A DNA stretch of 40,987 nt. Source: Planctomycetota bacterium. Its GTDB lineage: Bacteria; Planctomycetota; PLA2; JAEUHO01. The stretch lies in the NCBI GenBank assembly GCA_030065025.1, contig JASJDY010000084.1, forward strand, positions 1 through 40,987, in the 5' to 3' direction. Both the position numbers and the translations under genes were made by a program. Below the pieces are notes generated by a model, which worked only from the letters and a program-made list of their open reading frames with translations, searched no databases and was not told where the DNA came from. Shown here piece after piece: positions 2,192-5,452 of the stretch (position 1 is its first letter; each line of letters starts with the position of its first letter).

Positions 2192-3316
2192 TCACGCCTC
2201 GGCTGCGTCGCTCCGCGTCACGTGCAGCACTCGCTGCGGGAAGGGGATCTCGATCCCGCCCTCGTTCAGGGCGCGATTCAGCTCCGTACACACCTGGTCC
2301 AGCGCCCGCCCGTAGTCGACCGGCTTGCGCAGATAGCCGCGCACCTCGAAGTCGAGCGCCGAGTCGCCGAAGCCGCGGAAGCGCACGTTCGGCGGCGGCG
2401 ACGGCGCCAGCATGTCGCACGCCTTGACGGCCTCGAGCATCACCTCGCGGGCCTTGTCGACGTCGGAGCCGTAGGCGATGCCCAGCGGCACGCGCAGACG
2501 CCGCTTCACGTACGGCCCGCTCGACTCGTTGATGATCTTGGAGTTGGCCATGAGGCCGTTGGGCAGCGTGATCTCGATGTCGTCGCGCGTCAGGATGCGC
2601 GTGCTGCGGATACCGATATCGGTCACCTTGCCGCGCTCGCCCGTCTCGAGCACGATGAAGTCACCCAGCTTGTAGGGCGCGTCGGCGAGGATGAAGATGC
2701 CGGCGAACAGGTTCGCGAGCGTGTCCTTGGCCGCGAAGCCGATCGCGATGCCGAGAATACCGGCCGACGCCAGCCACGCCGTGAGGTCGATGTGCCACGC
2801 GGACATGAGACCGTAGATCGCGAAGCCCACGATCAAGAGCTTCGTGACGATCTCGAAGAGCGGCAGCGTGCGCGGCTCGATCCACTTGAAGTCGTCGACG
2901 CGCCGGGCGAGGCCGGTCAGGACCGCGTCGCTGATCTTCATGAAGGCGCGCATCCAGAACAGGATGGCGATCGTGACCATGAGCGACGTCGCGCGCGGGG
3001 TCCATGTGCTCCAGGTTCCGTAGTCGGACTGGAACGCTTCGCGCAGTGCCTTGCTGGCGTTCACCCCGGGATCGGAGGGCTCGAGGCCCTTCAGCATCAC
3101 GCTGAAGCCCACGAAGAGCACCGTGAGGAACAGCGGCCAGCGCAGCGCCGACAGGACCTTGTCGTCGAGCTCGTTCTTGGTGCGGTGCGTGACCATGCGC
3201 ACGACGCGGGTCACGACGAACTGCACGAGGAACGCGGCGACGACGCTGTAGATCAAGACCTCCCACCAGGAGAGGACCTCGAGCGACTTCAGCCACTTGT
3301 CGAACCACTCGGGCAT
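2192..3316 (-). CDS. Mechanosensitive ion channel family protein (MscS-type)
   Basis: MPEWFDKWLKSLEVLSWWEVLIYSVV...; MscS core GILGIAIGFAAKDTLANLFAGIFILADAPYKLGDFIVLETGERGKVTDIGIRSTRILTRDDIEITLPNGLMANSKIIN. Confidence 0.95.
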   Translation of the reverse strand: MPEWFDKWLKSLEVLSWWEVLIYSVVAAFLVQFVVTRVVRMVTHRTKNELDDKVLSALRWPLFLTVLFVGFSVMLKGLEPSDPGVNASKALREAFQSDYGTWSTWTPRATSLMVTIAILFWMRAFMKISDAVLTGLARRVDDFKWIEPRTLPLFEIVTKLLIVGFAIYGLMSAWHIDLTAWLASAGILGIAIGFAAKDTLANLFAGIFILADAPYKLGDFIVLETGERGKVTDIGIRSTRILTRDDIEITLPNGLMANSKIINESSGPYVKRRLRVPLGIAYGSDVDKAREVMLEAVKACDMLAPSPPPNVRFRGFGDSALDFEVRGYLRKPVDYGRALDQVCTELNRALNEGGIEIPFPQRVLHVTRSDAAEA

Positions 3317-3356
3317 GGATACCTCCATGCCCAGTGTCGGGGTGCGTGGCGACACC

Positions 3357-4204: not shown

Positions 4205-5452
4205 TCAGTCGACGACGGGGAGCGTGACCGTCTTCTCCGTGCGTCCGCGCAGCAGCTTGACGGCCACCTCCTGGCCCGCCCTCAGCTTCAGCCGGAACCA
4301 CGCGTGCCACTCCGCCACGCTGTGGAAGTCGCTCTTGCCGCCCGTCGCGAGGATCACGTCGCCCTTGCGGATGCCGGCCTTCGCGGCGTTGCGTCCCGTG
4401 TGCGCGTGCTCGCCCCACGTGACGAGGTAGTTGACGCGGAAGGCGAACGCCTTCTCGTCGAGCCCGAGCGTGCGCAGCTGAGCGGCACCCAGCCGGCGGC
4501 CGCCGAAGCCGGGCTTCGGCGAGAGCCTCCACTTGCTCGCCCGCCACGCGAAGTTGCGCGGGCTGGGCTCCTTCCAGCCCTTCGGCGCGCGAAGTGTGGT
4601 CCTGACGCTCTTGCCGGCGCGCTCGACCTGCAACGGGATGCGCGTGGCCTGCGGCGACGCCTCGTGCAGCACGCGCTGCACGTCGCCCAGCGTGAGGATC
4701 CGCCGGCTCTCCATGCGCAGCAGGCGATCACCCGTGCGAAGTCCCGCCGTGGCCGCCGGCGATTCCGGTGTGACGGCAGCGACCACCGCCTGGTCGTCGC
4801 GCTCGACCGTGAAGCCGAGCTCGCTCGAATCCGGGTAGCGCCAGGCCATCTGCCGGCGGAACGTCCCGAGGTCCTTGGCCCCCTCCGTCACCGCATCGTT
4901 CACCATGTGGCAGTGGTAGCACTCCGGCTGCTTGGGCCGCGCCTTCATCCAAGGCATGCGATCGACGCTGAGGGGCTCACGCTTCGCGGGCGGCGACGGG
5001 TTCTTCTGGTAGGCGGCGTGCGCCGGCAGCGTCTTGCGCAGCACGTCGACGAAGCTCTTCACGGACGTGTGGGATTGGGGATCCGTCCCGTCCCGTGCAC
5101 CGTAGCGGTGGTAGATCGTGCCGTCCGCGTTCATGAGGAGCACGGCGAGGGTGAGGTCGAAGTCGAAGTCGTAGGTGCGGACGTCGACGCCCTTCATGTT
5201 CGTGATGCGCACGCAGACGTACGGCTCGAGTGCCTTCGTGAGCTCGGAAGAGGAACGGACGACCTGCCCGTCGAAGGACCCGCAGTCCCTTCACGACTCT
5301 CAGCGGAACACGGCGACGATGGGCCGGCCCGTCTCGCGCGCCGCGGCACGTGCAGCGTCGAGGTCCGTGAGCCACGTGACACCGGCGCTCTCGCCGTCCT
5401 CGACCGCAGCGAGGACCGCGCAAAGCAGCAGCAGCAGGATCAGCGTGCGCAT
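4205..5452 (-). CDS. Putative selenoprotein: thioredoxin-like domain with UxxU motif, CxxCH (c-type heme-like) motif and PDZ domains; two in-frame TGA codons at 5300-5302 and 5291-5293
   Basis: Continuous reverse frame from ATG at 5452 (MRTLILLLLLCAVLAAVEDGESAGVTWLTDLDAARAAARETGRPIVAVFR) through TGA-GAG-TCG-TGA-AGG-GAC-TGC-GGG-TCC-TTC into SSELTKALEPYVCVRITNMKGVDVRTYDFDFDLTLAVLLMNADG...CYHCHMV...PDZ. The ORF track splits this into 5300-5497 and 4205-5212; 5302 and 5212 are exactly 90 nt apart, so they share a frame and no other stop intervenes. Confidence 0.8.
5255..5271 (-). promoter_or_regulatory. Candidate bacterial SECIS hairpin for the second TGA (5291-5293)
   Basis: Minus-strand RNA ACGGGC-AGGUC-GUCCGU: 6 bp stem (one G.U), 5-nt loop with G at position 2; loop spans nt 29-33 counted from U of the second UGA. 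Confidence 0.5.
5274..5290 (-). promoter_or_regulatory. Candidate bacterial SECIS hairpin for the first TGA (5300-5302)
   Basis: Minus-strand RNA AGGGAC-UGCGG-GUCCUU: 6 bp stem (one G.U), 5-nt loop with G at position 2; loop spans nt 19-23 counted from U of the first UGA. Confidence 0.55.

Follow-up and report, generated by a model that had tools for sequence, protein, structure and literature searches.

A putative double-selenocysteine Trx7/PDZ protein gene of a planctomycete and an RNA hairpin associated with its UxxU motif

Gene and predicted product

The stretch of DNA analysed here (the window) covers 40,987 nucleotides, positions 1 to 40,987 of contig JASJDY010000084.1 in a metagenome-assembled genome (MAG) of a Planctomycetota bacterium (GCA_030065025.1). 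Its minus strand holds, when read directly, one 415-codon frame running from an ATG at 5452 to a TGA stop at 4207–4205, which is broken in two places only, both times by TGA (UGA1 and UGA2; Table 1). The two TGAs are three codons apart, with GAG TCG between them. Rereading of the minus strand confirmed the coordinates and sequence given for this frame in a preliminary description of the window to be exact. The start of the gene overlaps the stop of the upstream gene, and the N-terminus encoded from the ATG, MRTLILLLLLCAVLAAVEDGES..., is signal-peptide-like. Standard ORF calling keeps 5212–4205 alone and misses the N-terminus; conventional gene callers split or truncate double-Sec genes of this kind.

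The read-through protein was compared to the NCBIfam and Pfam profiles, and its match to NF041199, the Trx7/PDZ domain-containing (seleno)protein, lies above the equivalog cut-off of 300 bits and spans profile positions 2–389 of 390. This is the Trx/PDZ (seleno)protein family to which the preliminary description had tentatively pointed. The domain order is Thioredoxin_7 (PF13899) followed by PDZ (PF13180, in two stretches). In an AlphaFold2 model built from 13 sequences (mean pLDDT 86.8, pTM 0.82), residues 51 and 54 are found between a strand (45–49) and the first Trx helix (55–64), at the start of that helix, where thioredoxins normally have their CxxC, with a lower local confidence of about 61 around the motif. 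A Foldseek search of the model was dominated by matches to its PDZ tandem (DegQ, DegP, RseP) and did not inform on the Trx part, for which a sequence search against the PDB returned a single weak match, the disulphide isomerase 3fk8 (E 0.03).

Table 1. Positions of the features discussed in the text, given for the window unless another contig is named.
Feature	Position	Strand	Evidence
Trx7/PDZ (seleno)protein gene, two in-frame TGAs	4205–5452	-	NF041199, 400 bits, residues 26–412
Signal-peptide-like N-terminus, about residues 1–21	5390–5452	-	Sequence; low-confidence, partly helical in model
Thioredoxin_7 domain core, residues 26–85	5198–5377	-	Pfam PF13899, E 2.9e-9; AlphaFold2 model
UGA1, predicted Sec at residue 51, first UxxU position	5300–5302	-	Aligns with C or U in homologues
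UGA2, predicted Sec at residue 54, last UxxU position	5291–5293	-	U in 100 of 100 Sec-containing homologues
Accessory hairpin H1, directly after UGA2	5275–5289	-	Predicted -6.4 kcal/mol; family statistics
SECIS apical hairpin	5254–5272	-	Folding; codon-shuffle tests
CxHCH motif, residues 178–182	4907–4921	-	138 of 138 homologue rows
First PDZ domain, residues 212–286	4595–4819	-	Pfam PF13180, E 2.3e-19, two stretches
Second PDZ domain, about residues 336–412, boundary approximate	4217–4445	-	Second Pfam stretch; model strands and helices 338–412
Seven further genes with in-frame TGA (loci L261–L267)	Window's genome (G000), contigs C10, C120, C227, C112, C180, C232, C58

A CxHCH motif lies between the Trx and the first PDZ domain and is invariant in the homologues. 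It matches the CxxCH haem-attachment motif of c-type cytochromes, and the N-terminus points to export of the protein; the motif suggests a candidate c-type haem or metal site, both equally possible. As judged from its sequence, the product of the gene is very probably a single exported redox protein whose active site contains two selenocysteines; it may function as an extracytoplasmic selenol/thiol oxidoreductase with its PDZ domains holding a partner or substrate. A gene for an MscS-type mechanosensitive channel is located nearby (2192–3355); the same is seen in four relatives (L117, L118, L119 and L122), in two of which, L119 and L122, it directly adjoins the Trx7/PDZ gene.

Motif states, Sec machinery and SECIS element

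Within the class, the family was matched above the cut-off in 16 of the 17 genomes searched. The best copy in each of these 16 reads UxxU in 10 cases, CxxU in four and CxxC in two, and several genomes encode a second, CxxU copy. Across the phylum, the family was found in 125 of 395 genomes. The motif could be parsed in 139 distinct homologues, mainly from Planctomycetota, of which 67 are UxxU, 33 CxxU and 39 CxxC, numbers that follow the sampling, as the loci were drawn non-randomly from the stronger matches; two additional rows left unparsed by the script read CxxC. Both TGA positions are thus C or U in 139 of 139 homologues, the pattern for which the preliminary description had proposed to look. 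Together with the NF041199 match over residues 26–412, this excludes a chance arrangement. The selenoprotein reading of that description is supported, but the UxxU form, which it had named as the point of interest, is no rarity of this gene: of the Sec forms sampled in the family, it is the commonest. The predicted double-Sec form is thereby common in a family listed as single-Sec. UxxC, although it prevails in many other Trx-fold selenoproteins, is found in none of the 139, the last motif position always being Sec when any Sec is present. Members from three genomes of Verrucomicrobiota (L125, L126, L127) are Cys-only (CxxC), and tandem copies occur within single genomes (L183, L225, L228, L233), some of them differing in motif, with UxxU beside CxxU or CxxC. 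A third TGA in one homologue (L253) was set aside, as it lies at the end of a partial match, outside the motif.

The preliminary description had also pointed to the sel genes as a check, and the outcome was mixed. The window's genome, an 89% complete MAG in 285 contigs, encodes selA and selD next to each other on one contig, whereas searches of this MAG for selB and tRNA-Sec gave no match. Both are present in relatives: selB exceeds the cut-off in every class genome but the window's own (16 of 17), and tRNA-Sec was found in 13 of the 17, with the anticodon UCA confirmed by ARAGORN in the nine that were checked. The two absences are most simply explained as assembly gaps. The selD gene of the window's genome (L046, on contig C201) has an in-frame TGA and probably itself encodes a selenoprotein. 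Seven other Trx-fold or AhpC/TSA genes in the same genome have an in-frame TGA at an active-site position, e.g. WUGPC and WUPYC, and dozens more such genes were seen in relatives within the class; this group looks rich in selenoproteins.

Downstream of UGA2, the check for a bacterial-type SECIS was positive. The element, GACGGGC[AGGUC]GUCCGUU, has a loop that begins 25 nt past UGA2 and 34 nt past UGA1. The bSECIS model, in the available parts of PMC13188914, has a loop of 3–9 nt with a G in its first two positions, a stem of 4–16 bp, a spacing of 16–37 nt and an energy of at most -7.5 kcal/mol. The window's element, with the loop AGGUC and a best fold of -11.5 kcal/mol, falls within these limits and resembles the bacterial SECIS in stem, loop size, loop G, spacing and energy, but differs from the description in that source in that a single element is within range of two UGAs. 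A permissive scan with the same limits detects an element of this kind in 65 of 66 UxxU, 31 of 33 CxxU and 11 of 39 CxxC genes. The loop of the Sec-form homologues usually lies 25–26 nt from UGA2 and therefore 34–35 nt from UGA1, so that one element is in range for both. Against a null in which synonymous codons were shuffled within alignment columns, the SECIS window gave z-scores of -8.2 for UxxU, -9.1 for CxxU and +1.4 for CxxC, with excess stability in the two Sec forms but not in CxxC.

These data bear on two other readings of the TGAs. That they are true stops or artefacts in a dead gene is scarcely credible: the sequence does come from a MAG assembly in which selB and selC were not found, but independent assemblies from its genus, its family, its order and its phylum have the same two TGAs in an intact frame, followed by a conserved SECIS. 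Sequencing error or decay would not produce the double TGA in so many separate assemblies and is ruled out; the homologue set refutes this as the main reading, and the motif tally upholds the preliminary argument that the two TGAs are neither error nor pseudogenisation. Very improbable, too, is that TGA is decoded as Cys or Trp or by plain read-through and not as Sec. With Cys at the aligned positions, the protein chemistry would tolerate insertion of Cys, and nothing else was found in favour of this reading; many genes here stop at TGA, the Trx7/PDZ gene included, SelA and SelD are present, and a conserved SECIS would be purposeless. We infer that Sec would be inserted at both sites.

Putative accessory hairpin between UGA2 and the SECIS

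A second hairpin, here called H1, is predicted between UGA2 and the SECIS, with the sequence GGGACU[GCG]GGUCCU in the window. The preliminary description had noted neither H1 nor the SECIS hairpin. Other versions are AAGGACU[GCA]AGUCCUU, GCUGGC[UGC]GCCAGC, ACUGGC[UGU]GCCAGU and GGCUCC[UGCA]GGAGCU, among others. Most UxxU genes have H1, while most CxxU and CxxC genes do not. The mean energy in an 18-nt window is -5.5 kcal/mol for UxxU, compared to -1.8 kcal/mol for both CxxU and CxxC, and the codon-shuffle z-scores of the same region are -10.3, +0.5 and -1.6, respectively. With a null drawn from the codon usage of each gene itself, the UxxU mean of -5.5 is set against an expected -2.6, and the CxxU mean of -1.8 against -2.0. 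Scanned along the gene, stability has two peaks in UxxU (H1 and SECIS), the SECIS peak alone in CxxU, and none in CxxC. The association has exceptions in both directions: two UxxU genes (L116 and L094) have little or no H1, and six of the 33 CxxU genes fold comparably, at -3.0 kcal/mol or lower. No single pair of columns covaries across the whole set because the H1 stem slides in register, which leaves column-wise covariation weak, and H1 was judged by its presence, its energy and the codon-shuffle tests. In minimum-energy folds of the whole region, H1 and the SECIS face competition from alternative pairings in some genes, that of the window included.

The motif has changed repeatedly within the family. 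On a first tree, computed after removal of the motif and SECIS columns, UxxU requires at least 13 changes on well-supported branches, and 16 changes were counted on a second, more carefully built tree limited to the 99 Sec-containing rows. When H1 was scored by threshold on supported branches, 11 independent pairs were available, 6.5 of them as expected and 0.1–0.8 opposite (median p 0.03–0.07); the corresponding test on the first tree gave a median p of 0.04–0.125, and this threshold-based paired test is borderline. When the energies themselves were compared over all branches, there were 15.5 edge-disjoint UxxU/CxxU pairs, and in 13.4 of them the UxxU gene had the stronger H1 (median p 0.007); the energy of the SECIS differed more weakly in the same pairs (10.2 vs 5.2). 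Neighbouring UxxU and CxxU copies in one genome (L183) show the same difference in H1. H1 thus tracks UxxU over about 15 independent pairs of relatives.

Other genes with two TGAs were sought in the class with PF00578 and PF13899 scans, which returned many single-TGA genes; among the matches listed, only Trx7/PDZ genes had two. The metal-binding protein family NF041115, another UxxU family, had no match in 297 genomes, a result that does not show its absence.

Proposed decoding of two UGAs and relation to known systems

The pattern is consistent with a model in which SelB, bound to the one SECIS hairpin, would deliver Sec-tRNA to both UGAs, while H1 would occupy the linker from UGA2 to the SECIS. 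With the ribosome on UGA1, H1 would still be folded at the mRNA entrance and would favour Sec insertion at this codon, whether by reducing the distance to the SECIS or by acting as a hairpin that redefines the stop codon. The ribosome footprint places H1 in the mRNA channel when the ribosome is at UGA2, where the hairpin would already have melted; H1 could hence act on UGA1 only, which fits its association with UxxU genes. On this comparative basis, H1 probably helps the ribosome to read UGA1. That UxxC is not seen would be expected if UGA1 depended on the system of UGA2, but could alternatively reflect protein chemistry. The model as a whole, an exported Sec-x-x-Sec Trx7/PDZ oxidoreductase with one SECIS for both UGAs and H1 aiding UGA1, is in our judgement likely, and we lean, with less assurance, towards H1 being an undescribed bacterial Sec-decoding spacer or redefinition hairpin by which one SECIS would recode two UGAs, and whose gain or loss would have coincided with that of the first UGA on at least about eleven occasions.

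Two other roles for H1 were weighed against this model. H1 might instead be a SelB-binding SECIS of its own for UGA1, leaving the downstream hairpin to serve UGA2 only. Its loops lie 13–17 nt past UGA1, mostly at 16 nt, which is the lower edge of the accepted 16–37 nt, and many of them begin with G. The loops are however variable, and their sequence is mostly fixed by the need to encode a conserved Cys (GCA, UGC); GG or GU occurs in just 11 of 63, in contrast to the downstream hairpin, whose loop nearly always reads GGU, AGGU or AGUU. Most H1 energies are moreover weaker than the bSECIS limit of -7.5 kcal/mol, and UxxC genes with H1 alone number 0 of 139 homologues, which together make a tandem SECIS unlikely. 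Somewhat less probable still is that H1 is unrelated to decoding, as a by-product of amino-acid or codon preference in UxxU proteins or through regulation of mRNA stability. The evidence for H1 is wholly comparative, and residues such as KDCKSF give part of the signal, as seen from the rise of the null means for UxxU, but the strong excess over synonymous-codon shuffles is found in UxxU only, H1 is positioned exactly between UGA2 and the SECIS, and it accompanies UxxU over repeated switches on the tree.

An H1 that assists UGA1 can be placed beside known systems. The family was first reported from ocean metagenomes as a 'putative secreted serine protease MucD' (PMC2398784), which, to judge from the review tables as far as available, would be NF041199, and the available parts of two reviews describe Trx7/PDZ as a single-Sec family with a CxxU motif (PMC13188914, PMC9312934). 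The window gene agrees with NF041199 in its full-length match above the cut-off, in domain order and in the Sec at the last motif position, and differs from the form in the accessible review text, as do 67 of the 139 homologues, in having UxxU with two TGAs (PMC13188914, PMC9312934). UxxU is a variant form within NF041199, with no ground for exclusion. Other UxxU selenoproteins are a Prx-like family (PMC2398784) and the FmdB-type metal-binding protein NF041115 (PMC13188914), according to the available portions of these sources; they have two Sec at CxxC spacing, as in the window, but belong to different protein families, and in a comparison by description no accessory hairpin is mentioned for them in those portions. 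The eukaryotic Sec redefinition element (SRE), e.g. of SELENON (PMC8704476), is, as H1, a short stem-loop just after the Sec-UGA and apart from the SECIS. The SECIS there lies in the 3' UTR, whereas H1 occurs in bacteria, is placed between UGA2 and the SECIS and goes together with a double UGA, so that the resemblance in action would be one of analogy and not of homology. The parts of PMC2398784, PMC9312934 and PMC13188914 at hand make no mention of UxxU in Trx7/PDZ proteins or of an accessory hairpin for bacterial double-UGA decoding. The family, its single-Sec form and UxxU in other families are thus known, while the UxxU-linked second hairpin is new with respect to these sources, and is more novel than the UxxU form itself.

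As a bacterial SECIS lies at a fixed short distance from its UGA, the decoding of two nearby Sec codons is a real question. The Trx7/PDZ family offers a natural experiment on it: its genes have switched repeatedly, and in both directions, between UxxU, CxxU and CxxC, the hairpin appearing and disappearing along with the first UGA, and the part played by H1 is testable with short reporters.
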